The notes below the pieces were generated by a model that did not search any database, had not been told where the DNA came from, and saw only the letters and a program-made list of their open reading frames with translations. Of a stretch of DNA of 49,027 nucleotides, positions 7,231 through 42,333 are shown piece by piece. The stretch's first letter is position 1. Every line of letters begins with the position of its first letter. Origin of the DNA: an uncultured Eubacteriales bacterium (GTDB lineage Bacteria > Bacillota > Clostridia > Christensenellales > Aristaeellaceae); the NCBI GenBank assembly GCA_902765735.1, contig CACXBB010000047.1, positions 1 to 49,027 on the forward strand, read 5' to 3'. The translations under genes and the position numbers were made by a program.

Positions 7231-7261
7231 AGGGCCAATGATGAATTTGGAGGCAACCGTT

Positions 7262-8473
7262 ATGTCCGCAATGAAACGTATGATCACCGCAATGCTCGCC
7301 TGTGTACTGCTGATGGCGCTTGTGTCGTCGGCCTGGGCGGAGAGCTGTTCCGTCCGCGTGAAGCGCGGCGGCGCGGTGGTCTACGACGCGAGCGGCGATG
7401 CGGTGGCGACGCTGCCGCAAAACACCATGCTCACGCTGACCGGCCGAAAGGGCAAGGTTTGCCGGATCAGCTACAAGGGAAAGACCGGCTACATGAAAAA
7501 ATCCGACCTGGCGAAGGTGGCCGCCGCGTCCGCGGAGGCGACCGGCAATGCCGGCGGCAATGCCGCCGACTATACGCCGATGAACAAGGCGGCCTACGTG
7601 GCGTCCGAACGCGCGAAGGTGTACAACGCCAAGGGCAAGGGCGTGGGAAAGCTGTCGCTGAATGACCAGGTCACCGTGACGGCCATGAAGGACGACATCT
7701 GCAGGATCAGCGTAAACGGCAAGACCGGCTACATGAAGCGCTATGACCTGTCCGCGAAGCCCGTGAAGGCCGCCTCGGCGTCCGGGTCCGAGGCAAAGCA
7801 GGCGGGGATGAAGACCGCCTACGTGGCCTCCGACGGCGCGAAGGTGTACAACGCCAAGGGCAAGGGCGTGGGCAAGCTGTCCAGGAACGCCCAGGTCACC
7901 GTGCTGGCGGTGAAGGACGACGTGTGCAAGATCAGCGTGGGCGGCAGGAAGGGCTATATGAAGAAGGGCGACCTGTCGACGAAGCAGGCGGGCCAGCCCG
8001 CGGCGTCGGTGCAGGCGGAGGCCGCTTCGTCCTCCGGCTCCGCCGCGACCCCGGCCAGGGGCACCGCCAGGGAGATGGACTGGTGGAACAGCGACATCCA
8101 GAAGATCTTCCCCCGGGGCGGCACCGCCACCGTCACCGACGTGGACACCGGCCTCGCGTGGAAGGAGCAGCGCCGGGGCGGCACCAACCACGCCGACGTG
8201 CAGCCCGTCACCGCCGCGGACACCGCCGCGCTGAAGCAGGCCTACGGCGGCACGTGGAGCTGGGCGCGCCGGGCGATCTTCGTCACCGTCAACGGCGAAA
8301 ACTACGCCGCCTCCATGAACGGCATGCCCCACGGCGGCGGGTCCATATCGGACAACGATTTCAACGGCCATCACTGCATCCACTTCACCAACAGCCGCAC
8401 CCACGGCAGCGACCGGGTGTGCGCGCTGCACCAGGCGGCCATCAAGAAGGCGGCGGAGACGACGCTGAATTGA
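7262..8473 (+). CDS. Secreted protein with three SH3b domains and HADVQP/THGS domain
   Basis: The 403-residue protein has a signal peptide (residues 1-26, cleavage after AWA) and three SH3b domains at about 28-86, 108-165 and 184-241. The second and third are nearly identical in sequence (shared KVYNAKGKGVGKLS) and in DNA, so they arose by recent internal duplication. A linker rich in Ala/Ser follows. The C-terminal domain of about 130 residues has NHADVQP, DTAALK, SWARR, MPHG, HHCIHF, SRTHGS and HQAAI, the same domain as in the 804 and 21350 genes. SH3b domains suggest peptidoglycan binding; the terminal domain is of unknown activity with a possible metal or Cys/His active site. The ATG at 7262 follows GGAGG at 8 bases, so the ATG at 7238 is not used. 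Confidence 0.85.
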   Translation: MSAMKRMITAMLACVLLMALVSSAWAESCSVRVKRGGAVVYDASGDAVATLPQNTMLTLTGRKGKVCRISYKGKTGYMKKSDLAKVAAASAEATGNAGGNAADYTPMNKAAYVASERAKVYNAKGKGVGKLSLNDQVTVTAMKDDICRISVNGKTGYMKRYDLSAKPVKAASASGSEAKQAGMKTAYVASDGAKVYNAKGKGVGKLSRNAQVTVLAVKDDVCKISVGGRKGYMKKGDLSTKQAGQPAASVQAEAASSSGSAATPARGTAREMDWWNSDIQKIFPRGGTATVTDVDTGLAWKEQRRGGTNHADVQPVTAADTAALKQAYGGTWSWARRAIFVTVNGENYAASMNGMPHGGGSISDNDFNGHHCIHFTNSRTHGSDRVCALHQAAIKKAAETTLN

Positions 8474-9103: not shown

Positions 9104-9239
9104 GGGGCTATCTCAAAACGCATAATCATTCAAATGAATACATGTTGTAGGGGCGGCGATGCGCCGCCCGCCCGTAGGGACGCCATTCATGGCGTCCGCA
9201 AATGTTTCGTACCCGGGCGGGCGCCGCATCGGCGCCCCT
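9104..9239. repeat. Dispersed GGGGCTGTCTC / GTAGGGGCG repeat, copy 2
   Basis: It begins GGGGCTATCTCAAAACGCAT and is bounded by inverted repeats (AGGGGCGGCGATGCGCCGCC and GGGCGCCGCATCGGCGCCCC) around GGACGCCATTCATGGCGTCC. Its core is the reverse complement of the 2090-2211 copy. It sits at the convergent junction of the HAD and ligase genes and supplies the last ~16 codons of the ligase. Confidence 0.75.
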
Positions 9240-10686
9240 TTCTGAGCAGCTTGCCGTTATAGGTGCGGGGGACGCGGTCGATGGCTTCAATGTAGGCCGG
9301 CACCTTATAGGCCTCCAGCCGTCCGGCGAGGAAGGCCCGCAGTGCGGCGAAATCCACGGCGCACCCGGGCTTTGACTGGACGTACAGCCTGGGCACATTG
9401 CCCCGGTGGGGGTCGCTGACCGGCACCGCGGCGCAGTCGGCGACGCCCTCAAAGCCCATGGCGGCGTCCTCGATCTCCTCCGGGGAGACCTTGTTGCCCC
9501 CCACGTTGATCACATAGCCCCGCCGTCCCAGCAGTATGATGTCGCCGTCCGGGTCCAGATAGGCCTCGTCGTTGGAGTAGATCACGCCGTCCGCCATGGC
9601 GCGGGCGGTCTCTTCGTCGTCCTGCCAGTAGCCCAGCATGTTCATGCCACCGGCGGAGGCCAGCAGCCCGGCGCGGTCGGCGGAGGTCTCGATCTTTCGG
9701 CGGTCGTCGTCCACGAAGAACAGCCGGGCGTTGCAGGCAGATTTGCCGATGCAGTTGGGCTTGGCGTCCGGGCGGTTGAAGTTGTACAGCGCCACGCAGC
9801 CGCTCTCCGTGGAGCCGTAGAAGTTGTAAAGCCGACTGTTCGGCAGCAGGCGGCAGATCTCCCGGCGGTCCGCCTCGGGCATGGGCGCGGCCCCGAACTG
9901 TATGTAGCGGATGCGGTCCGCGTAGTCTTTAAGCCTGCCCCGGGAGAGCCTGAGCACGGCGGTGAGCGCCGCGGGCACCAGGTCCAGGGCGTTTACGCCG
10001 CAGTCGTCCAGGTTCCTGAAGAACTGCTTCATGTTCATGGCGCTGCCCAGCAGCACCACGGTGGAGCCGTTGACCATGTTGGCGTAGTAGCGGCGCAGGC
10101 CGTGGGAGTGGTTCATCGGCGAGGGGATCATCTCCACGTTGTCATCTTCCATCTCCACGCCGTATATGACGTTCTCCGCCAGCGCGATGTCGTTGCCGTG
10201 GGTCAGCACGATGCCCTTCTCCCGGCCGGTGGTGCCGGTGGAGAACAGTATCTCACTGACGTCGGCGCGCACGGGCCAACGGTCCGACTCAAAGGGTTTT
10301 GCTTCGCCTTCCATGCGGGCCAGGTCCTCGAAGCACCAGCGCCGCGCGGCGGCATCCCCGGGACGGCAGGCGACGATGGCCACGGCCCCGACCCTCTCCG
10401 CGATGGCGTCGATCTTGCCGGGGGCGCAGTTGTGCTCCAGCGGCACGAATATCGCGCCGACGCGCTGCAGCGCCAGCTCGGTGGCCAGGTAGTCGATGGT
10501 CTGGCAGGCCTCGACCACCACCCGGTCGCCGGGGGCGACGCCCTCCCGGACAAACGCCCCGGCCAGCCGGGCGATCTTCCGCGCGTATTCGCGATAGGTG
10601 ACCCGGCCGTTGTCGTCAGTCAGGCACAGCCGGTCGGGGGACTGCTCCGCGTGGCGGAATACCGCCTCAACGATGGAATCAAACAT
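9187..10686 (-). CDS. Class I adenylate-forming acid ligase (AMP-dependent synthetase)
   Basis: The 499-residue protein carries the full set of adenylation core motifs. These are FSTGTTGREKG (phosphate loop), NHSHG, NFYGSTESG, the SNDEAYLDPDGDI region, the GRRGYVINVGGNKVSPEEIED hinge split over its usual positions, and the C-terminal PRTYNGKLLRK with the catalytic lysine. It would activate a carboxylic acid as an acyl-AMP and load it on CoA or a carrier protein. The NHSHG segment resembles acyl-CoA ligases rather than the amino-acid-specific FDLS segment of DltA, so D-alanine is not the obvious substrate. It ends the leftward set containing a DltC-like carrier, MBOAT and DltD-like genes and an ABC importer. 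Its last ~16 residues are encoded by an inserted repeat. The ATG at 10686 has AAGGAG about 10 bases upstream. Confidence 0.85.
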   Translation of the reverse strand: MFDSIVEAVFRHAEQSPDRLCLTDDNGRVTYREYARKIARLAGAFVREGVAPGDRVVVEACQTIDYLATELALQRVGAIFVPLEHNCAPGKIDAIAERVGAVAIVACRPGDAAARRWCFEDLARMEGEAKPFESDRWPVRADVSEILFSTGTTGREKGIVLTHGNDIALAENVIYGVEMEDDNVEMIPSPMNHSHGLRRYYANMVNGSTVVLLGSAMNMKQFFRNLDDCGVNALDLVPAALTAVLRLSRGRLKDYADRIRYIQFGAAPMPEADRREICRLLPNSRLYNFYGSTESGCVALYNFNRPDAKPNCIGKSACNARLFFVDDDRRKIETSADRAGLLASAGGMNMLGYWQDDEETARAMADGVIYSNDEAYLDPDGDIILLGRRGYVINVGGNKVSPEEIEDAAMGFEGVADCAAVPVSDPHRGNVPRLYVQSKPGCAVDFAALRAFLAGRLEAYKVPAYIEAIDRVPRTYNGKLLRKGRRCGARPGTKHLRTP

Positions 10687-10700
10687 GATGCCATGCTCCT

Positions 10701-11464
<764 letters not shown>

Positions 11465-11468
<4 letters not shown>

Positions 11469-12271
11469 AGCTTGCGCATCCCCCATTTGACTACGGTGTG
11501 CTTTTCGATGGGATTGAGTATGCCGTACTGCACCACCAGGCCGATGATGATGATGACCACCAGCGTGGCGTACATCTCGGCGTTGTTCATGTTGGTGCGC
11601 ATCTGATTGATGTACATGCCGATGCCCGGCGCGGCGGCGATGCCGAAGATCATCTCCGCGCTGATGAGCCCGCGCCACGCCCTGGCCCAGCCCACCTTGA
11701 GGCCGGAGAGTATGTAGGACATGGCGGCGGGGAAGTAGACGTCAAACAGCATCCCGGCCCCGCTGAGCCCCAGGTTCCTGCCCGCCTCCACGTAGAGTTT
11801 GGGCACGGACTTGAAGCCGTCGATCAGGTTGCGGGACATGGGCCAGATGACCGAGTGCACCACCAGAAACACGATCACCCCCGGGTTCACGCCGAATATG
11901 ATGATCACCACCGGCAGAAGCGCCACGCCCGGCAGCAGGTCGGCCACGGCCACCACAAGGCTGTACACGTTGTGGAACCCGTGGCTGACCATGCACAGCC
12001 CGGAGAACAGGAAGGCCAGCAGTATGCCGATGGCCATGCCCTCCAGGAGCAGCTTCATGGAGTTGAACAGATAGACCCACAGGGACACCCCCGCGTAGCC
12101 CATCACGAAGTTCTTCACAAACGCCCGGGCGATGGTCTCCAGCCGGGGGAAGATGATCTCCGAGCGCGCGCCGAACACGTGGGCCCGGGCGACGATCTCC
12201 CACGCCGCGAGTATCACGGCCACGAAGATCAGCTTCTCCGCAATGCCCTTCAAGGGCGTTTTTTTCGTCAT
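11465..12271 (-). CDS. ABC importer permease, NitT/TauT (SsuC/TauC) type
   Basis: The 268-residue protein has about six membrane segments and the binding-protein-dependent transport fold. The EAA-type cytoplasmic loop (ysvpklYVEAGRNLGLSGAGMLFDVYFPA region, about residues 157-185) matches the TauC/SsuC family consensus. The SEIIFPRL start of the periplasmic loop after helix 1 is also typical. GGAGG lies 8 bases before the ATG. It follows the binding-protein gene by 119 bases, of which about 46 are a small inverted GTAGGG repeat, and overlaps the ATPase gene by 4 bases. The protein presumably forms a homodimer with two ATPase subunits. Confidence 0.9.
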
Positions 12272-12292
12272 TCCAAGCCTCCAGAGTACACC

Positions 12293-12338
12293 GTAGGGGC
12301 GGAAGACCGCCCCCGGACGCCATAAATGGCGTCCCTAC
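12293..12338. repeat. Short GTAGGG...CCCTAC inverted repeat, copy of dispersed family
   Basis: GTAGGGGCGG at one end and GGACGCCATAAATGGCGTCC followed by CTAC at the other form a palindromic element between the binding-protein and permease genes. It shares GGACGCCAT-AATGGCGTCC with the copies at 2090, 9104 and 27301. On the RNA it would form hairpins that may lower expression of the permease relative to the binding protein. Confidence 0.65.
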
Positions 12339-12390
12339 GGGTGGATTGCGTCGCGTTGCCGTCGATTAAGGCCGTCCGCGGATGCCTGCG

Positions 12391-13335
12391 TCAGTTCCCC
12401 TTCACGTTGTCGAACACCAGATTGCTGTAATTGCCGGGATCGGCCTCGATGAAGGCGTTGTCGAACATGAACCGGGCCATGTCCTCGATGCCCTGGGTCT
12501 CGGCGGAATAGCTGCCCATGCCGAGGTAGCGGATCTCGTCCTCCACGGAGTTGCCGTCGTACTGGCTGGTCAGCGCCGCGGTGGCCTCGAGGTTGCCGTT
12601 GACGTAGTCGATGGCCTCCGTCAGGCCGTCGCAGAGCGCCTTGTACAGCTCGGGCCGGTTGTCGTGCAGGTCGACGGCCGCGACGCCCACGATGAAGGAG
12701 TTCTCCTTGGGCCAGGCGGCCTTCAGGGCCTCGATCTCGTGCAGGCCCTCGGTCTCCCGCTCGCGGAAGATGTAGGGGTTGGTGGTCAGGTGCAGCGGCA
12801 GGCTGCCGGTCATGAGGGCGTTCATGCCATCGGGGTGCTTCATGGCCACGAGGTTGGCGTCCAGCGCGTGGGCGTCGTAGCCGTTGTCGCTTAAGCACTT
12901 GGCCAGTATGATGTGCTGTATGGAGCCGATGTTCACCAGCGCGACCTGGTTCTCGCTGCCCACGATGTCCTCCAGCGCGTTGATGCTGTCGTCGTTGGAC
13001 ATCAGGCCGTGCTCCTGGCCGGACAGGTTGGTGAAGATCTTGTAGCCCACGTTCTTGGAGATGCCGGTGATGGCCGGGCCAACGCCCATGAAGCCCACGT
13101 CCACGGAGCCGGACATGACGCCGGTGTTGATGTCCGCGCCGGAGCTCATCTGCACCCATTCGACCTCCAGGTCGCCGTCATAGGCCTTCTCGATGAATCC
13201 CTCGGTCATGGCCACCACCACGGGGGCGTAGGCCAGGCCGTACTGGTAGGCGATGGTCAGGTGCGCGCCCTCGGCGAGCGCCGGAACGGCGCAGAGCAGG
13301 GCGGCGATCAGCAGGGCGGTCAGCAGCTTCTTCAT
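12391..13335 (-). CDS. ABC importer substrate-binding protein, NMT1/SsuA-like
   Basis: The 314-residue protein starts at the ATG with a perfect AGGAGG site 7 bases upstream. The first 21 residues are a signal peptide (cleavage after PALA). There is no canonical lipobox, since the Cys lies inside the hydrophobic core as LLC, so anchoring is uncertain. The mature part has the two-lobed NMT1/SsuA-like pattern: LTIAYQYGLAYAPVVVA at the start, VEWVQMSSGADINTGVMSGSVDVGFMGVGPAI, then NVGSI-like and MTGSLPLHLTTNPYIF segments. The ligand cannot be deduced. Position between the carrier protein and the permease genes suggests that it captures the acid, or its precursor, that the ligase of the same set activates. 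Confidence 0.85.
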   Translation of the reverse strand: MKKLLTALLIAALLCAVPALAEGAHLTIAYQYGLAYAPVVVAMTEGFIEKAYDGDLEVEWVQMSSGADINTGVMSGSVDVGFMGVGPAITGISKNVGYKIFTNLSGQEHGLMSNDDSINALEDIVGSENQVALVNIGSIQHIILAKCLSDNGYDAHALDANLVAMKHPDGMNALMTGSLPLHLTTNPYIFRERETEGLHEIEALKAAWPKENSFIVGVAAVDLHDNRPELYKALCDGLTEAIDYVNGNLEATAALTSQYDGNSVEDEIRYLGMGSYSAETQGIEDMARFMFDNAFIEADPGNYSNLVFDNVKGN

Positions 13336-13358
13336 GATGATTCCTCCTAAAATGGTTG

Positions 13359-13580
13359 TTATTGCAACTCCTCCACCATGGCCCACATGGCCTCGACGGA
13401 TTCAAAGTTCTCGGGCTGTATGTATTCCATCGTGACGGAGATGTCGAACATCTCCTCCAGGTTGGCGATGATGCCCACCACCGCCAGGGAGTCGAGTATG
13501 CCGTCGGTCATGAGGTGCTTTTCGTGGTCGAAGTCGATGAGGGGGAATTCGCGCTTGAGCATGTCGAGTATCTGTTCCAT
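13359..13580 (-). CDS. DltC-like acyl carrier protein
   Basis: The 73-residue acidic four-helix protein carries the phosphopantetheine attachment motif GILDSLAVV, with Ser31 as the modified residue. The pattern after it (ANLEEMFDISVTMEYIQPENF) follows DltC, the D-alanyl carrier, more closely than fatty-acid ACP, notably in the I-x-P-E-N-F turn. It sits between an MBOAT acyltransferase and an ABC importer, in the same leftward set as an adenylating ligase. So it most probably receives the activated acid from the ligase and presents it to an MBOAT. AGGAGG lies 7 bases before the ATG. Confidence 0.9.
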   Translation of the reverse strand: MEQILDMLKREFPLIDFDHEKHLMTDGILDSLAVVGIIANLEEMFDISVTMEYIQPENFESVEAMWAMVEELQ

Positions 13581-13591
13581 AATAACCTCCT

Positions 13592-15166
13592 TTAATAGCG
13601 TTCATAGATGAATGCGCTGCCGTAGCCGTGCCCGTACATGCCGAATATGACGATGGCAAACAGGCAGCCGTAGGCGAGCAGCCACCTGAGGGCGATGCCG
13701 CGCCGATTAAGCGTCTCGCGGATCGGGAGGCGCTCCTGCACCGCGTCCACGACGATCAGTATGACCACGGCGGCCGCGGACACGATCGCCCGGTCGATGT
13801 TCATGCCGTAGGTCGAGGGCTTGAGCAGGCTGGCCCACGCGATGCCGGGGCGCGCCATCTTCCGAAGGATGGCGACGGCGGTGCGCAGGTCGTCGGCCCG
13901 GAAGAACACCCGGCCGAGGCAGCACAGCGCGAAGGTGCGCAGCGTCTGCCAGGCCCGCCAGGCGAAGTGGGCGGTGTCGATCCGCAGCCGGCGGTTCACG
14001 CCCGCGAACACCGGCTCGAGTATGGCGCTTCCGATCAGCAGCGCGGCGTGGAACAGTCCCCACACCACGTATTTCCACGCGGCGCCGAGCCAGATGCCGC
14101 TGACCAGCCACACCACCAGTATCGGAAAGCAGCTGCCGAACAGCTCCGCCGCCCGGGTCCTCCCGGCCTTCGCCCACCGGCGCTTGGTGTTCTTGACGAA
14201 CGCCGACGTGGACACCGGGAAGTAGATGTAATCCTTGAACCACTCCTGCAGCGAGATGTGCCAGCGCCGCCAGAATTCACCCATGGTCCGGGAGAAGTAG
14301 GGGTGGTTGAAGTTCCTTTTGAGCGATATACCCATCATTTCGGCCACGCCCGTCACGATGTCGATGCAGCCGGAGAAGTCCGCGTAGATCTGCACGGAGT
14401 AGGTGACCACCGCCGCAATCAGCACAAAGCCCCGCAACCGGCTCCAGTGGGTGAAGGCCGCGTCCACGAACAGCCCCAGGCGGTCGGCGACGACCAGCTT
14501 TTTGAAGAAGCCCCACATCATCAGCTGCGCGCCGGAGGCCAGCTTTTCGTAGCTGAACGCCACGCCGCCCTTGAGCTGCCGCTTAAAGTCGTTGTAGCGG
14601 TCGATGGGCCCCTGCACCACGTGGGGGAAGAACGACAGAAACGCGAAGTAGGCGATGGGCGATTCCTCCGCGGGGTAGCGTTTCCAGTACACGTCCAGCA
14701 GGTAGCCCAGGGCCATGAAGGTGTAGAAGGAGACGCCCAGCGGCAGCAGCAGCCGAAAGACCGGCAGCTGCTTAAGATGTATGAGCCCCAGCGCCGCGTT
14801 CAGGTTTTCCAGCGCGAACGCCGCGTACTTGCACACGACCAGCAGCCCGATGGCGACCGCCATGCCCACCGAGAGCGCCTTCTTCGCCCGGGCCTTGGCC
14901 TCGGCGCGCAGCACCTTGCGCTCGGCGGCCTCGGCGGCCTTGATCCTTGCGTCGTATGCGCGGTAGATGCCGCCGATCCGCTTCGCCGCGAGGAACGTGA
15001 CCAGCGCGGTCGTCAGCAGAAAGGGCAGGGCCTTCAGTCCCGAGAGGGCGTAGAACGCCAGGTTCGAAAGCGCGATGACAATGGTCTGCCGCCTGCGCCC
15101 CACCGTATAGTAGACGGCCAGCACGACGCCCACGAAGCCCAGAAACTGTATCGAATGGTAACTCAT
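13592..15166 (-). CDS. MBOAT-family membrane acyltransferase, GxWHG histidine replaced by Leu
   Basis: The 524-residue polytopic protein belongs to the MBOAT family (DltB/AlgI/PatA type). The block YFSRTMGEFWRRWHISLQEW includes the first conserved histidine (His303) and is followed by FKDYIYFP. The second conserved motif, normally G-x-W-H-G-A, reads GIWLGAAW. The codon at 14089-14087 is CTC (Leu360), where the paralogue at 16621-18204 has CAC. In DltB and AlgI the histidine of this motif is considered catalytic, so this copy may be inactive as a transferase or work in partnership with the other. ATG at 15166 has AAGGGGTGG upstream. It lies 26 bases after an SGNH gene and 11 bases before the carrier protein gene. 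Confidence 0.9.
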   Translation of the reverse strand: MSYHSIQFLGFVGVVLAVYYTVGRRRQTIVIALSNLAFYALSGLKALPFLLTTALVTFLAAKRIGGIYRAYDARIKAAEAAERKVLRAEAKARAKKALSVGMAVAIGLLVVCKYAAFALENLNAALGLIHLKQLPVFRLLLPLGVSFYTFMALGYLLDVYWKRYPAEESPIAYFAFLSFFPHVVQGPIDRYNDFKRQLKGGVAFSYEKLASGAQLMMWGFFKKLVVADRLGLFVDAAFTHWSRLRGFVLIAAVVTYSVQIYADFSGCIDIVTGVAEMMGISLKRNFNHPYFSRTMGEFWRRWHISLQEWFKDYIYFPVSTSAFVKNTKRRWAKAGRTRAAELFGSCFPILVVWLVSGIWLGAAWKYVVWGLFHAALLIGSAILEPVFAGVNRRLRIDTAHFAWRAWQTLRTFALCCLGRVFFRADDLRTAVAILRKMARPGIAWASLLKPSTYGMNIDRAIVSAAAVVILIVVDAVQERLPIRETLNRRGIALRWLLAYGCLFAIVIFGMYGHGYGSAFIYERY

Positions 15167-15192
15167 GTCCACCCCTTGAATGACGCAGGTAT

Positions 15193-16530
15193 TTATTCCG
15201 GTTTGACGCCGCCGTAGAGGAAATTGCCGTAGAAGGTCTCCCCCTCCGACGCGCGCCACGGGACCACGGTGTAGCGGCAGTCGCCCTCCGGCGCGCCCTC
15301 CGCGTCCTCAAACCGGGTGTCGACGGTGTCGGCAAGGCGCGTCCAGGCCCCGTCGGGCCCGTCCTTTCGGTAGACCGAATACCCGTCGGCCCCGCGCGCC
15401 GCCGCCCAATTGATCCGGACGCCGCCGTCCGCCGCCGCGGCTTCGAGGCTCCCGGGCGCCGGAAGGGTCCAGTCCCGGTGCGCGGCGTCCAGCTCGATGT
15501 CCAGAAGCCACGGCGTGATGACGTCCGCGTAGCGCTCCCAGGCGGCGTCCCAGTCGGCGTAGGCCGCGTCGCCGCGCTTGTCCCTCAGGTCGGGATCGAG
15601 CGCCGTGAGCCGGGCGCACAGGCCGTCGGTGAACTTGACGGAGCCGTGGATGTTGGTGTGCTTGTCGTTGTAGAAGTCCTGGGTCAGGTCAAGGCCCAGC
15701 GCCACGGTCTGATCGGAGAGGTCGAGCACCTCGTAGCCCCGGGCGCGCAGGTGGTCGCAGACGGTGTTGATCCGGCCCATGGTCTCGCCGGTCTTTTCCG
15801 CCCGGGGGACCGAGACGAACAGCACCTCCACGCCCTCGCGGTCGCAGTAGTCCAGCAGGCTGTCGATCGCCTCCATGAGCGTCTCCGGCACGGCGGTGCG
15901 CAGGTCGGAGTCCAGGTATTCGTCGGAGATGTCCTCCGCGCCGCCGAGGTAGTCTTTGTAGGTGCCCGCGCCGTTGAAGCCGTCCAGCTCGGGCACGGGG
16001 CCGTTGATCAGCCGGTCGTACCAGAGCTCCCGGAGCCGAAGCCACGGAAAGCGGAACTCCAGCCGGTCCAGCCATCCGTAGCCCATCAGATCGGAGAGCC
16101 GGTCGGTCAGCGCCCGCTTTTCCCCGGATTCGGGCATGTAGTTGAGCAGGTAGTGCGCCCCGGAGGCGTCGAGGTCGTCCGCGTCCACGGAGTTGACGCT
16201 CACGATGAACCGGGCGTCGGGCTGGGTCTTGCGGACCTCCCGGATGAGGTATTCCGTGGCGTAGAAGGGCTGGTCCGGGCTGGCGTAGGGGTAGACGGCC
16301 AGCCCGTGGTTGTGCCACGCGACCAGGGCGTTCCAGAAGGCGTAGCAGTTGCTGGAGCCGAGGTAGACCGCGTCCAGGCTGTCGTCGGCCTCCTCGTAGA
16401 AGCCGCCGATGGTCTGATAACTCCGGTAGTCCGGGTAATGGGCGAACACCCGGGTCACCGGGTAGAGCAGCAGGGCGAACAGGGCCCAGAACGCGGCAAC
16501 TCTCAATACAATGGTCTTTTTCTTTTTCAT
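15193..16530 (-). CDS. SGNH/DltD-like membrane-anchored protein with C-terminal FN3-like domain
   Basis: The 445-residue protein has one N-terminal membrane helix (about 8-28) and an exterior SGNH-type hydrolase/acyltransferase region. The nucleophile motif is YLGSSNCYAFWN with Ser60, a VSVPR strand follows near residue 240, and the His-bearing motif is DFYNDKHTNIHGSVKFT near residue 290. The last ~85 residues (INWAAARGADGYSVYRKDG and onward) look like a fibronectin type III-like domain. DltD and alginate AlgJ/AlgX-type proteins act with MBOAT partners in the final extracytoplasmic transfer. Here an MBOAT gene follows after 26 bases. Two further paralogues are at 18230 and 19706. It lies behind its own strong promoter and has no clear Shine-Dalgarno sequence, only a GGTTAT/ATAACC hairpin just before the ATG. 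Confidence 0.8.
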   Translation of the reverse strand: MKKKKTIVLRVAAFWALFALLLYPVTRVFAHYPDYRSYQTIGGFYEEADDSLDAVYLGSSNCYAFWNALVAWHNHGLAVYPYASPDQPFYATEYLIREVRKTQPDARFIVSVNSVDADDLDASGAHYLLNYMPESGEKRALTDRLSDLMGYGWLDRLEFRFPWLRLRELWYDRLINGPVPELDGFNGAGTYKDYLGGAEDISDEYLDSDLRTAVPETLMEAIDSLLDYCDREGVEVLFVSVPRAEKTGETMGRINTVCDHLRARGYEVLDLSDQTVALGLDLTQDFYNDKHTNIHGSVKFTDGLCARLTALDPDLRDKRGDAAYADWDAAWERYADVITPWLLDIELDAAHRDWTLPAPGSLEAAAADGGVRINWAAARGADGYSVYRKDGPDGAWTRLADTVDTRFEDAEGAPEGDCRYTVVPWRASEGETFYGNFLYGGVKPE

Positions 16531-16532
16531 CT

Positions 16533-16549
16533 GGTTATGTCCGATAACC
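16533..16549. promoter_or_regulatory. Inverted repeat in the leader just before the 16530 start
   Basis: GGTTAT, 5 bases, ATAACC lies between the promoter and the ATG, at the place where a ribosome site is expected but absent. It could be a protein operator or a leader hairpin. Confidence 0.45.
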
Positions 16550-16574
16550 CACTTTCAAGTAATAACCTACCGGA

Positions 16575-16603
16575 ATTATACCCACTGAACGGGGAAATGT
16601 CAA
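16575..16603 (-). promoter_or_regulatory. Consensus promoter for the SGNH-MBOAT-ACP-ABC-ligase operon
   Basis: The minus strand has a perfect TTGACA (16603-16598), a 17-base spacer and a perfect TATAAT (16580-16575), about 40 bases before the start at 16530. It makes the seven genes from 16530 to 9187 a separate transcription unit from the SGNH-MBOAT pair upstream, although no strong terminator is visible between them. Confidence 0.9.
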
Positions 16604-16620
16604 CCTCGCGCGGGCGCCCG

Positions 16621-18204
16621 TCAGAACTGCTCGTAGATGAACCCCGTCGCGCCGTAGCCGGGGCCGTAGACCCCGAAGATCAGCACGAAGAACAGGCAGC
16701 CGAAGATGAGGGCCCACCGGATGGCGATGCTGCGCCTCGACAGCGTCTCGCGCAGAGGGGTCCGCTCCTGAACGATGTCCACGATAAACAGTATCAGCAT
16801 GGCGGCCAGTGTGACCAGCAGGTCCGGCACAGTGCCGCTGAACGCAACCAGACTCTCCCACAGCGCAGCAAGCGAGAGCGGTCCGCGGGCGATGGCCCTG
16901 AAGATGCCCATGGCGTCCGACAGGCTCGCTGCCCGGAAGAACACCCGGCCCACGCAGCAGATGAAGAAGGTGCGCAGTATCTGCCACGCCCGCCAGAGGG
17001 GGTTCTCCGCCCTGATCCCGAGGCGGCGGTTTGCGGCGATGAAGGCCGGCTCCAGCAGGGCGCTTGAGATCAGCACGGCGGCGTGGAACAGGCCCCAGAC
17101 CACGAATTTCCAGTCCGCGCCGTGCCAGATGCCGGTGACCATCCACACCACAAGGATCGGGAAGCAGGTGGCGAAGCGCTCGGCGGCGCGGGGTTTGCCC
17201 TTCTCCCGCAGGCGCTTCTTGACGCCCCGCATCAGCCCGGAGGCGGATACGGGGAAGTACACGTAATCCTTGAACCACTCCTGCAGCGAGATGTGCCAGC
17301 GCCGCCAGAACTCGCCCATGGAACGGGACAGGTAGGGGTGGTTGAAGTTCTTTTTGAGGCGGATGCCCAGCATCTCCGACACGCCGGAGACGATGTCGAT
17401 GCAGCCGGAGAAGTCCGCGTAGATCTGTATGGAGTAGAGCGCCACCGCGCCGATGAGCACGCCGCCGCCCAGCTCCTGCCAGCCGGAAAAGGCCTTGTCG
17501 ATGATCAGGCCCAGCCGGTCCGCGATCACCAGCTTCTTGAAGAAGCCCCACAGCGTCAATTCCGCGCCGAAGGCGAGCTGCCGGGGGTCGAAGGCCACGC
17601 CGTCACGGATCTGGTCCCGGAACTCCTTGTAGCGGTCGATGGGCCCCTGCACCACGTGGGGGAAGTAGGAGAGGAACGCGGCGTAGCTGAGCAGGCTCTG
17701 CTCGGCCTCGTACCGACGCCAGTACACGTCCAGCACGTAGCCCAGCGCCATGAAGGTGTAAAACGATATGCCCACCGGCAGTATCACGCGAAACACCGGG
17801 ACCTGCGGCCGGTTGATAAGCGCCAGCGCGGCGTTGAGGTTCTGCAGCAGGAAGCCCGTGTACTTGCAGACCACCAGCAGTGCGATGGGGATGAGCATCC
17901 CCGGGATCAGCGCCCTTTTGGCCCGGGCCTTCGCCGCGGCGCGCAGGGCCTTTTTGGCCTGTTTGTCGGCCTCCGCCCTGATCTGCGCGTCGGTCTCGCG
18001 GTACGCCCGGTCCATGGCCCGGGCCGACCAGAAGGAGACCAGCAGCGTCGTCGCCAGAAACGGCAGGTATTGCGGGCCGGCCATGCCGTAGAACGCCAGG
18101 TTCGCCAGCAGCAGCACGGCCTTCTGACGCCTGCGCCCTGCCAGGTAGTAGACGGTCAGCACGACCAGCACGAATGCGAGAAACAGTATGGATTGATAGC
18201 GCAT
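16621..18204 (-). CDS. MBOAT-family membrane acyltransferase with intact GxWHG motif
   Basis: The 527-residue polytopic protein is a paralogue of the 13592-15166 product along its whole length. It keeps both histidines expected for an active MBOAT of the DltB/AlgI type: RRWHISLQEWFKDYVYFP (His304) and GIWHGADWKFVVWG (His361). Such proteins move an acyl group from a cytoplasmic thioester through the membrane to an acceptor or an SGNH partner. The start at 18204 is chosen because GAGGG lies 6 bases upstream; the ATG at 18210 abuts that site. It follows the SGNH gene at 18230 by 25 bases, and the two form a unit driven by the promoter at 19621-19649. Confidence 0.92.
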   Translation of the reverse strand: MRYQSILFLAFVLVVLTVYYLAGRRRQKAVLLLANLAFYGMAGPQYLPFLATTLLVSFWSARAMDRAYRETDAQIRAEADKQAKKALRAAAKARAKRALIPGMLIPIALLVVCKYTGFLLQNLNAALALINRPQVPVFRVILPVGISFYTFMALGYVLDVYWRRYEAEQSLLSYAAFLSYFPHVVQGPIDRYKEFRDQIRDGVAFDPRQLAFGAELTLWGFFKKLVIADRLGLIIDKAFSGWQELGGGVLIGAVALYSIQIYADFSGCIDIVSGVSEMLGIRLKKNFNHPYLSRSMGEFWRRWHISLQEWFKDYVYFPVSASGLMRGVKKRLREKGKPRAAERFATCFPILVVWMVTGIWHGADWKFVVWGLFHAAVLISSALLEPAFIAANRRLGIRAENPLWRAWQILRTFFICCVGRVFFRAASLSDAMGIFRAIARGPLSLAALWESLVAFSGTVPDLLVTLAAMLILFIVDIVQERTPLRETLSRRSIAIRWALIFGCLFFVLIFGVYGPGYGATGFIYEQF

Positions 18205-18229
18205 GTTCATCCCTCAGGCTGTCGTAGTA

Positions 18230-19561
18230 TCACAGTGTTATGCTCTGGCCGAAGGTGGAGAAGTTGCCGTACAGCAGGTCCTCCCCGGACCGGCGCGCGG
18301 GCACCACGGTGTAGCGGTACTCGACGCCGCCTCTGAGCCCGCCGTCCGCGAAGGCGCAGTCCTCCGTCGCGGCCACCCGCTCCCAGACGCCCTTGGCCCC
18401 CTCCTTGCGGTAGACACAGTAGACCTCCGCGCCCTTCACCGGCCGCCAGGCGATCTCTGCCCGAGCGTCCCCGGCGGGGGAAACCTTCACGCCCCGGGGC
18501 TCGGCGAGGGAGAAGTCCCGGCTTCCGGCTTCCGGCTCGAAGTCCAGCACATAGGGGGCGATGATCTCCATGTAGCGCGCCAGGCCACTGTCCCAGCTTG
18601 CGTAGGCCGGGTCGCCGCGCCGATCCTCCAGGCCGTAGGTTTCGATCAGGTATTTTGAGAGGTAGTCGGTGAACTTGATGGCCCCGTGGATGTTCGTGTG
18701 GGTGGGGTCGTAGAAATCCTGCGAGAGGTCCAGCGGGATCGCCCCGACCTGATCGTTCAGGTACAATACGTCGTGGCCCCGTTCGCGGATGAGGTCGCAG
18801 GCGGTGTTGATCCGGCCCAGCAGGTTTGCGGTCTTTTCGTCCCGGGGCACCGCGACGAACAGCACCCGGACGCCCTCCGCGTCGCAGTAGTCCATAAGGT
18901 GCTCGAGGCACGCGCGCTGGTTGTCCGTAATGGGGGTCCGCTTTTCGGTGGTCCTGTACCGGCGGGTGAGGTTGAGGCTCCTGGACAGGAAGTTGTCGTA
19001 GTGGCTGGCGGCCTTCATGCCGTCCACCCGGGGGATGATGCCCTCGTCCAGGTATTCCGTCCAGTACTGCCGCATGCGGATCCACGGCAGGTACAGCTCC
19101 AGGCGCTCCGACCAGCCGAGCCCCAGCAGGTCGCAGAGGTGGTCCCGGAGCTTCCGCTTGAGCTCGGAATCGGGCATGTAGCTTAAAACGTGGTGGACGT
19201 GGGAGATGTCCATGGCGTCGAACACCACGGAATTGATGCTCACGATGTACAGTGCGTCCGGCTGGGTCTTGCGGGCCTCCCGGATGACGTACTCTATGGC
19301 GTAGAGCGGCATGCCGGCGCAGGTGTACGGGAACACGGTCAGGCCGTGGTTCTTCCAGGCCATCAGGGCGTTCCAGAAGGCATAGCAGGTGCTCGTGCCG
19401 ATGTACACCCCCTGCAGGCTGCCCGCGGGCTCGTCGTAGAAGGCGCGTATGGACTGGGCGATTCTGAAATCGGGATGATTGGAAAACACCGCAGTCATCG
19501 CGGCGTACAGTATGATGAATATGCCGATAAAGGCAACGATTTTAAGGATGCTTTTCTTCAC
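18230..19561 (-). CDS. SGNH/DltD-like protein with FN3-like domain, duplicated copy 2
   Basis: The 443-residue protein has a membrane helix near the N-terminus and an exterior SGNH region with YIGTSTCYAFWN (nucleophile Ser in G-T-S), FVAVPRDEK, and DFYDPTHTNIHGAIKFT with an intact D-x-x-H. A fibronectin-like C-terminal domain (EIAWRPVKGAEVYCVYRKEG) follows. It is very similar to the gene at 19706 and less so to 15193. GTG at 19561 is preferred as start since GAGG lies 7 bases upstream; a TTG at 19576 in the same frame is the alternative and lacks a ribosome site. The MBOAT gene follows after 25 bases. The role is inferred to be the exoplasmic transfer or hydrolysis step of a surface acylation pathway. 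Confidence 0.8.
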   Translation of the reverse strand: MKKSILKIVAFIGIFIILYAAMTAVFSNHPDFRIAQSIRAFYDEPAGSLQGVYIGTSTCYAFWNALMAWKNHGLTVFPYTCAGMPLYAIEYVIREARKTQPDALYIVSINSVVFDAMDISHVHHVLSYMPDSELKRKLRDHLCDLLGLGWSERLELYLPWIRMRQYWTEYLDEGIIPRVDGMKAASHYDNFLSRSLNLTRRYRTTEKRTPITDNQRACLEHLMDYCDAEGVRVLFVAVPRDEKTANLLGRINTACDLIRERGHDVLYLNDQVGAIPLDLSQDFYDPTHTNIHGAIKFTDYLSKYLIETYGLEDRRGDPAYASWDSGLARYMEIIAPYVLDFEPEAGSRDFSLAEPRGVKVSPAGDARAEIAWRPVKGAEVYCVYRKEGAKGVWERVAATEDCAFADGGLRGGVEYRYTVVPARRSGEDLLYGNFSTFGQSITL

Positions 19562-19620
19562 CTGGCGCCTCGTCAAGGGTCGGTCTCTTCGTGTCCGTGT
19601 ATTTAGCCGTCATTCGCCCC

Positions 19621-19649
19621 AGTATACCACAACGGCGCATCGATGGCAA
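19621..19649 (-). promoter_or_regulatory. Promoter of the 19561 SGNH gene
   Basis: On the minus strand TTGCCA (19649-19644), a 17-base spacer and an extended -10 TGGTATACT (ending at 19621). The same arrangement with TTGTCA precedes the duplicate gene at 21092-21120. Confidence 0.75.
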
Positions 19650-19705
19650 CCGCAAAACCCGCCCGAAAATGTAAGGTTTTCCGGCATTTCCGAATGGCGG
19701 GGCGG

Positions 19706-21037
19706 TCACAGTGTTATGCTCCGGCCGAAGGTGGAGAAGTTGCCGTACAGCAAATCCTCCCCGGACCGGCGCGCGGGCACGACGGTGTAGCGGTATTCGA
19801 CGCCGCCTTTGAGGCCATCGTCCGCGAAGGCGCAGTCCTCCGACACGGCCACACGCTCCCAGACGCCCGTGGCCCCCTCCTTGCGGTAGACACAGTAGAC
19901 CTCCGCGCCCTTCACCGGCCGCCAGGCGATCTCCGCCCGAGCGTCCCCGGCGGGGGCGACCTCCACGCCCCGGGGCGCTTTGAGGGTGAAATCCCGGTTC
20001 CCCACGTCCAGCTCGAAGTCCAGCACGTAGGGGGCGATGATATTCAGGTAGCGCGCCAGGCCACTGTCCCAGCTTGCATAGGCCGGGTCGCCGCGCCGAT
20101 CCTCCAGACCGTAGGCTTCGATCAGGTATTCCGAGAGGTAGTTGGTGAACTTGATGGCGCCGTGGATGTTGGTGTGCTTGATCTCGTAGAAGTCCTGCGA
20201 CAGGTCCAGGTGCACCGCGTCGGCCTGATCGGTCAGGTACAGTACGTCGTGGCCCCGCTCGCGGATGAGGTCGCAGGCGGTATTGATCCGGCCCAGCGAC
20301 TCCGCCGAGCGCTCCCCTCGGGGCACCGACACGAACAGCACCCGGACGCCCTCCGCGTCGCAGTAGTCCATAAGATGCTCGAGGCACGCCTGCTGGTTGG
20401 GGGAGATGGGGGTGCGCTTTTCGGTGGTCTTGTACCGGCGGGTGAGGTCGAAGGTCCTTGAAAGGAAGTTGTCGTAGTAGCTGGCGCCCTTCATGCCGTC
20501 TATCCGGGGGATGATGCCCTCGTCCAGGTACTCCGTCCAGTACTGCCGCATGCGGATCCATGGGAAGTCCAGCTCCAGCCGCTGCGAACGGTCCAGCATC
20601 AGCAGGTCGCAGAGGTGGTCCCGGAGCTCCCGCTTGAGCTCGGAATCGGGCATGTAGCTCATGATGTGGTAGATATGGGTGATGTTGAGATCGTCATAGT
20701 CCACGGAGTTGACGTTGACGATGAACACGGCGTCCGGCTGGGTCTTGCGGGCCTCCCGGATGACGTACTCCGTGGCGTAGATGGGCATCGAGGCGCAGCT
20801 GTACGGGAACACGGTCAGGCCGTGGTTCTTCCAGGCGATCAGAGCGTTCCAGAAGGCGTAGCAGTTGCTGGAGCCGATGTACACCCCCTGCAGGCTGCCC
20901 GCGGGCTCGTCGTAGAAGGCACCTATGGACTGGGCGATCCTGAAATCGGGATGATTGGAAAACACCGCGGTCATCGCGGTGAACAGTATGATGAATATGC
21001 CGATAAAGGCGATGATTTTTAGGATGCTTTTCTTCAC
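19706..21037 (-). CDS. SGNH/DltD-like protein with FN3-like domain, duplicated copy 1
   Basis: This 443-residue close paralogue of the 18230-19561 product has the same membrane helix, the nucleophile motif YIGSSNCYAFWN, FVSVPRGER, and the histidine motif DFYEIKHTNIHGAIKFT. Glu stands here at the D-x-x-H acid position. The C-terminal FN3-like domain is nearly identical. The gene, its promoter and about 20 bases beyond (shared ATGTAAGGTTTT) are a tandem duplicate of the next gene. The middle third, about residues 130-200, has diverged most and may hold acceptor specificity. GTG at 21037 with GAGG upstream is preferred over the TTG at 21052. It is the most upstream gene of the acylation region. 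Confidence 0.8.
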   Translation of the reverse strand: MKKSILKIIAFIGIFIILFTAMTAVFSNHPDFRIAQSIGAFYDEPAGSLQGVYIGSSNCYAFWNALIAWKNHGLTVFPYSCASMPIYATEYVIREARKTQPDAVFIVNVNSVDYDDLNITHIYHIMSYMPDSELKRELRDHLCDLLMLDRSQRLELDFPWIRMRQYWTEYLDEGIIPRIDGMKGASYYDNFLSRTFDLTRRYKTTEKRTPISPNQQACLEHLMDYCDAEGVRVLFVSVPRGERSAESLGRINTACDLIRERGHDVLYLTDQADAVHLDLSQDFYEIKHTNIHGAIKFTNYLSEYLIEAYGLEDRRGDPAYASWDSGLARYLNIIAPYVLDFELDVGNRDFTLKAPRGVEVAPAGDARAEIAWRPVKGAEVYCVYRKEGATGVWERVAVSEDCAFADDGLKGGVEYRYTVVPARRSGEDLLYGNFSTFGRSITL

Positions 21038-21349: not shown

Positions 21350-21937
21350 ATGAAATCCCTTATTCGCAAATTGATCTGTCTGATGCTGGTGCTGGCGAAC
21401 CTGAACGTCGTCGCGCTGGCGGAGCCTACCCTGGCCGTGCGCACCGCCGTATTCGGCGCGGAGGAGGCGCGGTCGGCGGACGTCTTTTCCGCCGACCCGG
21501 ACAGCGTGTTCACCCTCACCAGAAGCGGGGGCTGGAAGAGCCGTGTGGTGGCCATGAAGTGGTACGACGGCGGGTCCGGCGTGCTTCGGAAGGGCGAGTA
21601 CGGCGGACTGTACGACGTGAAGACCGGCATGCACCTGAAGATCAAGCGCATGGGCGGCAGCTCCCATGCCGACGTGGAGCCCGCCTCGAAGTCCGACACC
21701 GCGAAGCTCAAAAAGATGGGCTATTCCTGGGACCGCCGCCCGGGTATACTCTACTCCGACGGCAAGTTCGTGGCCTGCTCCTTCGCCACGCAGCCCCACG
21801 GCCACCAGACGATCTCGAAAAACGGCTATCACGGCCAGTTCTGCCTGCACATGGTGGGCAGCAAGACCCACGGCTCCGACCACGTGGACGCCGACCATCA
21901 GGCGGCCATCAAGAAGGCGTATAGCTGGGCGCATTGA
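21350..21937 (+). CDS. Secreted HADVEP/THGS-domain protein without SH3b
   Basis: The 195-residue protein has a signal peptide (cleavage near VALA/E, residue 24), a short spacer of about 40 residues instead of an SH3b domain, and then the same C-terminal domain as the 804 and 7262 genes. Shared motifs are KWYDGG, KIKRMGG, SHADVEP, DTAKLKK, YSWDRRPGIL, QPHG, GQFCLHM, SKTHGS and HQAAIKKAYSWAH. It is closest to the 804 product, also in the final YSWAH. Its lack of a wall-binding domain means that the terminal domain can work alone as a soluble secreted protein. AGGAGG lies 8 bases before the ATG. It stands alone, facing away from the SGNH genes. Activity is unknown. Confidence 0.8.
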   Translation: MKSLIRKLICLMLVLANLNVVALAEPTLAVRTAVFGAEEARSADVFSADPDSVFTLTRSGGWKSRVVAMKWYDGGSGVLRKGEYGGLYDVKTGMHLKIKRMGGSSHADVEPASKSDTAKLKKMGYSWDRRPGILYSDGKFVACSFATQPHGHQTISKNGYHGQFCLHMVGSKTHGSDHVDADHQAAIKKAYSWAH

Positions 21938-40903: not shown

Positions 40904-40941
40904 ATTAACATGGAGTTATCAATAAAAAGGAAATGTTTGAT

Positions 40942-42333
40942 ATGCAAAAGCAAGGAAAAGGGCGTTTTCTCATCCTGGCGGCGGCCTTGATCATACTGTC
41001 AAGCGTGCTGCCCTGCCCCGAGGGGCTCACCCGGGCGGGCATGCAGTCCTTCGGCGTGATACTGGCCTCCATCGTGCTGTGGGTCACGGAGACCATGAAC
41101 ATGGCGGTCACCGGCATCTTCATGGCGACGCTTCTGGTGTTCATGAAGATCCTGACGCCGGGCGACATGTTCAAGGGCTTCGGCGGCTCGGTGTTCTTCT
41201 TCATGGTCGGCACCATGTCCATCACCACGGCGATGGCGTCCACCACGATCCCCACCCGCATCGCCGGATTGATCATGACCTGGGCGAAGAAGTCGCCCCG
41301 CAAGCTGGTGGTGGGCTTCGCGGTGGGCACGGCGCTTCTGTCCTCCATCATGTCCAACATCCCCACCTGCGCGCTGTTCGCGTCGCTGGGGCTGGCGGTA
41401 TTGAAGGCCAACGGCGACCCGAAGCCGGGCACCTCCAACCTGGGCAAGTGCCTGATGATCGCCATACCGGCGGCCTCGGTGGTGGGCGGCTACATGACCC
41501 CCGCCGGCGGCCCGACCAACATCATCGCCATGAACACCCTGGCGGCCATGGACCGGCCCGTGACCTTCCTCAAGTGGATGATCCAGGGCTATCCCATCGG
41601 CCTGCTGGTGACGGTACTGGTGGCGCTGTGGATCACCTTCGTCCACAAGCCGGAGAACATCTCCGACGAGGCCATGAAGGTCGCCGAGAAGATGGTGCAC
41701 GGCGCGGGCCCGCTGGATACCCGTGAGAAGAAGGCCCTGGCGGTCATCGCAGCCATGTTCGTGGCGTGGATCGCCTCCTCCTGGATCCCGGTGCTCAACA
41801 CCACCTGCGTGGCGCTGATGGGAACCTGCCTGTTCATGTTCCCGGGCATCGAGGTATTGAGCTGGGAGGAATACTCCCAGAAGGGCGGCTGGGACGCCAC
41901 CTTCATGGTGGGCTCGGTGGGCGCGCTGGCGGACGCCACGCTGGTCACCGGCGCAGCCAAGTGGCTGATCACCGTCACCCTGGGCGGCGCGGCCAACTGG
42001 AGCCCCTTCGCGGTGTTCCTGCTGATCTCCTTCCTGGTGTGTATCATCCACATCCTCATCCCCTCCGGCCCCGCGGTGGCGGGCCTGGCGGTGGTGCCCA
42101 TCGTGGAGCTGGCGGTGCTGGCGGGCATCAATCCCGCGGGCGCGGCGATACTGGTGTCCTTCTGGTCGGCGGTGACCTTCGTGCTGCCCACCGACGCGGT
42201 GCCCATGTTTACCTACAAGTTCAAATACTACAAGTTCAGCGATATGGTCAAGACCGGCGTGCCCGCCTCCGTGGTGATCGCGGTGCTGGTGGCCATACTG
42301 ATCCCCGCGGCGTGCGCGCTGCTGGGATGCTGA
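40942..42333 (+). CDS. DASS family (SLC13-like) anion:sodium symporter
   Basis: The 463-residue polytopic protein belongs to the divalent anion:Na+ symporter family. Sodium/substrate hairpin motifs are SNIPTCALFASLGLAV in the first half with TPAGGPTNIIAMN, and PTDAVPMF in the second half. About eleven membrane helices are evident. Members carry dicarboxylates, sulfate, tartrate and similar organic acids. It is the first gene after the divergent PucR-type regulator. The ATG at 40942 is preferred, with AAGGA 9-10 bases upstream; the ATG at 40933 is too close to that site. Confidence 0.9.
   Translation: MQKQGKGRFLILAAALIILSSVLPCPEGLTRAGMQSFGVILASIVLWVTETMNMAVTGIFMATLLVFMKILTPGDMFKGFGGSVFFFMVGTMSITTAMASTTIPTRIAGLIMTWAKKSPRKLVVGFAVGTALLSSIMSNIPTCALFASLGLAVLKANGDPKPGTSNLGKCLMIAIPAASVVGGYMTPAGGPTNIIAMNTLAAMDRPVTFLKWMIQGYPIGLLVTVLVALWITFVHKPENISDEAMKVAEKMVHGAGPLDTREKKALAVIAAMFVAWIASSWIPVLNTTCVALMGTCLFMFPGIEVLSWEEYSQKGGWDATFMVGSVGALADATLVTGAAKWLITVTLGGAANWSPFAVFLLISFLVCIIHILIPSGPAVAGLAVVPIVELAVLAGINPAGAAILVSFWSAVTFVLPTDAVPMFTYKFKYYKFSDMVKTGVPASVVIAVLVAILIPAACALLGC

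Follow-up and report, generated by a model that had tools for sequence, protein, structure and literature searches.

To our knowledge, known envelope acylation pathways make their acyl group inside the cell. The Dlt pathway groups a ligase, a carrier, an MBOAT and an exoplasmic transferase in one operon and employs an acyl-tyrosine shuttle hexapeptide, and the sections of PMC12148441 drawn on here place the FXYXXF motif on DltX. The same sections describe peptidoglycan O-acetylation by PatA/PatB, in which PatA transfers acetyl to the tyrosine in the FXYXXF hexapeptide at its own C-terminus and PatB is able to accept acetyl from such a peptide, and they present other MBOAT/SGNH pathways as working without a carrier, an absence evidently due to the use of acyl-CoA. 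The nearest published idea that we found is the use of LicB to import choline destined for teichoic acid or lipooligosaccharide: the Lic-1 system (LicB importer, LicA, LicC and LicD), as the portion of PMC10434233 used here reports, takes up a small molecule from the environment, activates it and attaches it to these polymers. Here we analysed a ten-gene operon on contig CACXBB010000047.1 of an uncultured Eubacteriales bacterium (the window, meaning the whole stretch of 49,027 nucleotides), which encodes a ligase, a carrier, MBOATs, SGNH-like proteins and an ATP-binding cassette (ABC) importer. With a rough probability of 0.6, we read it as an envelope acylation pathway that is complete in itself and supplied from outside.

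The operon resembles the Dlt pathway in both features named above, and differs from it in lacking Asp235 of the ligase and any significant DltD match and in having an MBOAT-fused shuttle and an importer gene. With PatA/PatB it shares an MBOAT with a C-terminal FXYXXF-type motif and a separate exoplasmic protein, but instead of relying on an acyl-CoA donor without a carrier it encodes both a carrier and a ligase. The likeness to Lic-1 would lie in the import, activation and placement of an environmental molecule, whereas Lic-1 transfers phosphorylcholine from CDP-choline, and the portion of PMC10434233 used here names no carrier, MBOAT or SGNH protein. TauABC/SsuABC have the same NitT/TauT-type binding protein, permease and ATPase, and the anion contacts of TauA are kept, with Thr132 as Ser; the amine-binding acids of TauA are replaced, and the linkage to acylation genes is particular to the present operon. 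No carrier-dependent MBOAT operon with an importer was described in the literature searched (titles and abstract openings, with limited terms and a limited library).

A ten-gene putative acylation operon with an importer

The original prediction had described a leftward cluster with a ligase, a carrier, two MBOATs, a NitT/TauT-type ABC importer and three SGNH-like proteins, and open reading frames and Pfam bore this out. All ten genes are open and contiguous on the minus strand at 9187–21037; from 21037 to 9187, three SGNH-like and two MBOAT genes are interleaved, followed by the carrier, binding protein, permease, ATPase and ligase genes. Likely ATG starts were found at 10686 (ligase), 11468 (ATPase), 13335 (binding protein) and 15166 (MBOAT 1), and with these fixed, the predicted spacings are exact: the 4-base overlap is that of permease and ATPase (11465–11468), and the 14-base gap separates ATPase and ligase (10687–10700). 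An NMT1-type binding protein, a BPD permease and an ATPase occur together in Pfam, as in a NitT/TauT ABC importer. The features are as follows (all minus strand; E-values in brackets).

9187–10686: AMP-forming carboxylate ligase, 499 aa, proposed carrier loader (Pfam AMP-binding 9.8e-54, plus AMP-binding_C)
10093–10110: putative ligase pocket segment His193-Ser194-...-Arg198 (EntF/GrsA positions 234, 235 and 239; alignment anchored on EntF and a DltA)
10701–11468: ABC importer ATPase (ABC_tran 3.3e-32), overlapping the permease by 4 bases
11465–12271: ABC importer permease, NitT/TauT type (BPD_transp_1 3.1e-15; SaoP, NtrB, SsuC and TauC models below cut-off)
12391–13335: substrate-binding protein, sulfonate/taurine branch (NMT1_2 4e-13)
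13009–13011: His109 codon, aligned with TauA Glu106; His in 9/9 binding proteins of the system
13359–13580: carrier protein, 73 aa, predicted attachment Ser31 in LDSL (NCBIfam AmcB 7e-9 and DltC 3e-8, both below cut-off)
13592–15166: MBOAT 1 (Pfam MBOAT 3.1e-17), predicted active-site His in WRRWHISL, tail FIYERY
13595–13612: putative C-terminal acyl-shuttle hexapeptide of MBOAT 1, FIYERY (FXYXXF motif of PMC12148441, with Tyr last here)
15193–16530: putative SGNH-like exoplasmic transferase 1, with G58-S-S60 and His291, an N-terminal hydrophobic segment and a C-terminal Fn3-like region (3mpc 4.8e-4)
16621–18210: MBOAT 2 (Pfam MBOAT 8.1e-20), 60% identical to MBOAT 1
16624–16641: putative C-terminal acyl-shuttle hexapeptide of MBOAT 2, FIYEQF (FXYXXF motif of PMC12148441)
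18230–19561: putative SGNH-like exoplasmic transferase 2 (G58/S60/H291 motifs)
19706–21037: putative SGNH-like exoplasmic transferase 3, a recent tandem copy of 2 (88% DNA identity over 1456 bases)

The neighbourhood is conserved and the importer is exchanged

A ligase, a carrier and an MBOAT were found together at 12 loci, and at nine of these the same ABC importer is present, in five gene orders:

Order 1 (window type): window, L012, L013, L014
Order 2 (MBOAT-SGNH-carrier-ligase-importer): L015, L025
Order 3 (ligase-LysR-importer-SGNH-carrier-MBOAT): L026
Order 4 (carrier-MBOAT, then an unrelated open frame, a ligase in the opposite orientation and LysR-importer-SGNH): L016
Order 5 (importer-MBOAT-SGNH-ligase-carrier; ATPase located by tblastn): L037

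With L024, L027 and L038 completing the 12, an importer of some type is linked to the ligase, carrier and MBOAT at 11 loci. Four (L012, L013, L015 and L016) were found solely via the binding protein, so the count is biased towards importer presence. Excluding the window's own genome, the ligase-found set comprises 12 genomes, of which seven have the carrier and MBOAT (four with the ABC importer, one with a DASS permease, one with an SSF symporter and one without importer), three are of the hexapeptide-repeat transferase type and two have no carrier. The 12-locus count is separate from L034, L039 and L040, with no MBOAT found in the DNA examined, and from L035 and L036, with no carrier found.

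At L024 there are no such ABC genes; between the carrier and ligase genes lies a DASS/citrate-type permease (CitMHS 1.3e-44, Na_sulph_symp 1.6e-34), the only Na_sulph_symp match of its genome. DASS permeases belong to a family known for di-anions. At L027, an SSF sodium:solute symporter (2.8e-41), one of two in an 83% complete genome, precedes the ligase, and in both loci the importer stop codon lies 13 bases before the ligase start. In the ligase tree, L024 is sister to the ABC clade of the window (support 100/99) and is the closest ligase outside that clade. DctM and LysR genes stand beside the ligase of L039, which has a carrier and a hexapeptide transferase. The exchange of importers at L024 and L027 is the strongest sign we have, and suggests that import serves the ligase.

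That the importer and acylation genes are mere neighbours and the ligase uses a common internal acid was weighed against these data. Around some binding-protein relatives of 32–40% identity, the DNA examined (L017–L023, 4.6 to 20.9 kb; genomes G014 and G058, 17.5 to 18 kb) shows no ligase, carrier or MBOAT, and L038 lacks an importer, as this explanation would allow. Against it stand the five gene orders, the swapped importers and a residue signature in the binding protein, His109 with S65-G66, present in 9/9 at ligase loci and 0/9 elsewhere. We therefore consider mere adjacency improbable. The four other ligase-found genomes with a close binding protein (E 2e-75 or better) all have it 90 to 4365 bases from the ligase; the product of chances is about 2e-11, assuming independence and one such gene per genome, and leaving out weak relatives (25–30% identity) elsewhere in 4/13 genomes. 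A binding-protein scan of genome contigs gave 12 loci, five with a ligase. The co-occurrence search thus showed a neighbourhood conserved in relatives, and the cluster withstood the objection that its ABC genes lie there by chance. Neighbours of three other MBOATs of the same genome (L028–L030) were compared with the ten proteins of the window, which is less than a full importer control.

The system is rare and patchy. At E 1e-40 the ligase search found 6/150 genomes of the family, and a nine-ligase profile found 5/396 genomes of the order (E 1e-90), 5/391 of the class and 2/398 of the phylum (E 1e-85). The own genome was included in each draw, some genomes were common to several, and the profile searches scored at most three candidates per genome at cut-offs of 1e-85 to 1e-90, so weaker relatives fall outside their scope. 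Among the own-genus genomes listed in the family search, 2/7 have the system, and their ligases are only 42% identical.

Some further loci and transporters were set apart. L034, L039 and L040 have an Arg239 ligase and a carrier adjoining a hexapeptide-repeat transferase (a Pfam call in L039; in L034 and L040 the call follows from resemblance of the first residues), with polysaccharide-type genes around; perhaps the same acid is put on a glycan there by a cytoplasmic enzyme. An MFS gene about 600 bases from the L040 ligase was not counted as an importer. The window itself has a DASS/citrate-type permease gene at 40933–42333 on the plus strand (Na_sulph_symp 5.3e-42, the only such match in its genome), which we considered in the role of a further importer and rejected: it shares 21% identity with the permease of L024, and some 20 kb separate it from the near end of the operon.

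The system is distinct from a dlt operon

Genome G513 carries a second operon in which DltB, DltC and DltD score above cut-off and a DltX-like small protein ends in FTYAEF, matching no NCBIfam model. Its DltA reaches 549 of 559.85 bits with TIGR01734 and exceeds the cut-off of a second DltA model, PRK04813.1; the TIGR01734 cut-off was reached in 0/8 genomes searched, G513 being nearest. Judged by these scores, it is a genuine dlt operon. G513 thus holds both a canonical dlt operon and the present system, and the latter is therefore not a drifted dlt operon. The window MBOATs score 159.6 and 164.4 of the 375 bits of the DltB model TIGR04091, against 500 for DltB of G513, and their FXYXXF-type motif is an MBOAT tail in place of a separate DltX. 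The sole Na_sulph_symp match of G513 (C15), considered as a candidate for the missing importer, adjoins an apparent glycyl-radical enzyme and activase, named from their first residues, and is not claimed as an importer.

The carrier matches Pfam PP-binding at 0.0034 (18 bits, below the 20.8 cut-off) and NCBIfam carrier models down to 7e-9, also below cut-off. Its best model is AmcB of cispentacin synthesis, and the DltC models give 33.5 of 68 bits (NF003464) and 19.8 of 52.35 bits (TIGR01688), which makes it a carrier but not a DltC by cut-off. The attachment serine is present in 15/15 carriers compared. The window MBOATs exceed the Pfam MBOAT cut-off. Of the 15 MBOATs at the 12 loci, every one has the tail FxYxx[FY] and retains the active-site histidine (WH[IMV], 15/15). 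Both window MBOATs end in the shuttle hexapeptide, and a DltX would therefore not be needed. Three further MBOATs encoded in the own genome, and the three from L035 and L036, have the same tail and histidine, and the DltB tail of G513 differs; by these alignments the hexapeptide tail is general to shuttle-fused MBOATs and not special to the present system. The unusual feature here is the carrier alongside a shuttle-fused MBOAT.

The label "DltD-like" first given to the three exoplasmic proteins did not hold up by sequence. No Pfam or NCBIfam DltD model matched at E 0.01, and a profile of 12 such proteins against one genuine DltD was not significant (hhalign probability 0.5%, E 0.11), although the short alignment lays GSS on GSS. 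Against solved structures, no SGNH enzyme was matched by sequence. G58, S60 and H291 are invariant among the 12, and a [DNE]xxH motif is present in 10/12, with Gly replacing the acid in both L015 copies. The putative SGNH assignment is drawn from the G-x-S and [DNE]xxH motifs and the pairing with MBOATs.

Ligase and binding-protein pockets suggest an anionic substrate

The NHSHG segment noted earlier in the ligase lies at residues 192–196, and by sequence the enzyme is not of the D-alanine type: the DltA model TIGR01734 gives 106.6 bits against its cut-off of 559.85, and Ser194 stands where DltA of G513 and EntF have Asp235. We placed EntF of E. coli K-12 and DltA of G513 in one alignment with 17 ligases. 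At the serine-code positions EntF read D V W H F S L V D, which we take to be its serine code, and hence the position mapping looks sound. At 235, 236, 239, 278, 299, 301, 322, 330 and 331 the letters of the window ligase are S H R D Q G F C V. Arg239 (window Arg198) occurs in 15/17 ligases, namely all those with a neighbouring carrier, and is absent from both without one. The same 15 have Ser or Ala at 235, where DltA of G513 has Asp; Asp235 occurs in 0/17.

The binding-protein profile finds SsuA 2x26 (1.5e-12) and TauA 6ssy (6.3e-10). We took the TauA contacts from the consulted part of PMC6906117 and left unused Asn55, Asp84 and Ser109, whose letters mismatched at those numbers. In an alignment that is weak at 27 bits, 9/9 system binding proteins have Q, G, G and S at the places of the sulfonate-binding Gln30, Gly61, Gly79 and Thr132, the amine contact Glu106 is His in 9/9 (window His109), and the amine contact Asp205 is Ile in eight and Leu in one (window Ile215); with both amine-binding acids replaced, the protein does not look like a taurine importer component. 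In nine related binding proteins from outside the system, position 61 is Thr or Pro, 106 is Leu, Ile or Val, and 205 is Ile. These relatives differ at 106 but share Ile at 205, and therefore His109 is particular to the system whereas Ile215 is not.

Both proteins thus lack the amine-binding acids and both gain a basic residue (Arg in the ligase, His in the binding protein), which favours an anionic carboxylate. The pockets both point to an anionic ligand without an alpha-amine and argue against D-alanine; the substrate may be an anionic carboxylate, perhaps a dicarboxylate or sulfo-carboxylate, with sulfoacetate and plain dicarboxylates as candidates only. Asp278 could leave room for a hydroxyl or an amine. 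An imported zwitterion, for example a beta- or gamma-amino acid bound through Arg239 and Asp278 and giving a cationic ester like that of D-alanine, would agree with Asp278 in 10/12 system ligases, with the taurine/sulfonate branch of the binding protein and with AmcB as the best, though sub-threshold, carrier model. We regard it as unlikely though conceivable: the Glu106 and Asp205 replacements affect 9/9 binding proteins, and in L024 a permease of the di-anion-associated DASS family takes the place of the ABC importer beside a ligase that agrees with that of the window at nine of ten pocket letters.

In L016 (8874–9839) and L026 (7823–8782) a LysR regulator gene separates the ligase gene from the binding-protein gene and directly adjoins the latter; such a regulator could sense the acid brought in. 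On a sister branch of the binding protein, L042 (G058) has the binding protein, permease and ATPase adjoining a gene that encodes an L-amino acid ligase C-terminal domain, and L043 (G014) has them adjoining a gene whose start is similar, perhaps another import-and-ligate pair.

Flanking genes

Two plus-strand genes, 7238–8473 and 21350–21937, flank the operon and by eye have a common C-terminal stretch, N/SHADV...HG...CLH/CIHF...THGSD...HQAAIKKA. In Pfam the pair gave SH3-type matches only, in the 7238–8473 gene.

Proposed pathway and its meaning

The genes, their motifs, the conserved linkage and the exchange of importer type are observed at these loci; the chemical steps, substrate class, direction of transport and acceptor we infer. 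The importer would bring in a small carboxylate other than an alpha-amino acid, probably with a second anionic or polar group, and the ligase would activate it with ATP and load it on the carrier as a thioester. An MBOAT would then carry the acyl group across the membrane to the tyrosine in the hexapeptide at its C-terminus, from which an SGNH-like protein would take it to esterify a surface polymer. A teichoic-type acceptor is most likely, based on one relative and on gene presence: around the ligase locus of L038 there are three Glyphos_transf genes, a cytidylyltransferase of IspD type and an epimerase, neighbours that fit a teichoic polymer, and Glyphos_transf genes occur in 7/8 genomes searched, with four in the own genome and none found in G103. 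The originally predicted course of import, activation, loading and placement accordingly keeps its conserved neighbourhood and its non-D-alanine ligase and gains the importer swap, and loses the DltD likeness.

Several observations weigh against a pathway fed from outside. L038 has the ligase, carrier, MBOAT and SGNH-like protein with no importer recognised within 20 kb, and a search of its genome gave no binding-protein match. The two swaps are single cases and could be chance neighbours, a CstA transporter lying near the G513 dlt operon too. In L016 the ligase is on the opposite strand, with an unrelated open frame between MBOAT and ligase. The presence of as many as three SGNH-like proteins and two MBOATs in a single operon is not accounted for by this reading. 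The pocket readings rest on alignments, that with TauA being the weak one; Asp278, present in most system ligases, could bind an amine; and with Ile at Asp205 common to the nine outside relatives, only His109, Ser65 and Gly66 are system-particular. Salvage, in which the acid is made inside the cell and the importer recovers it after esterase release from the polymer, would explain both the importer-less L038 and why different importers can serve. No acid-biosynthesis gene was recognised travelling with the cluster, the flanking genes being scanned in part, and we hold salvage to be distinctly improbable.

Beyond the externally fed pathway itself, we tentatively propose, as possible but short of probable, a class of systems in which the surface is decorated with an environmental anionic acid (a dicarboxylate or sulfo-carboxylate) by Dlt-type carrier chemistry and a shuttle-fused MBOAT, with an exchangeable importer (ABC, DASS or SSF; DctM in L039). 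The pairing of a carrier with a fused shuttle would add a combination to the MBOAT-SGNH scheme. If true, surface charge would follow diet or habitat, in the opposite sense to D-alanylation, and an imported acyl donor would tie the surface chemistry of a gut bacterium to host or microbial supply.

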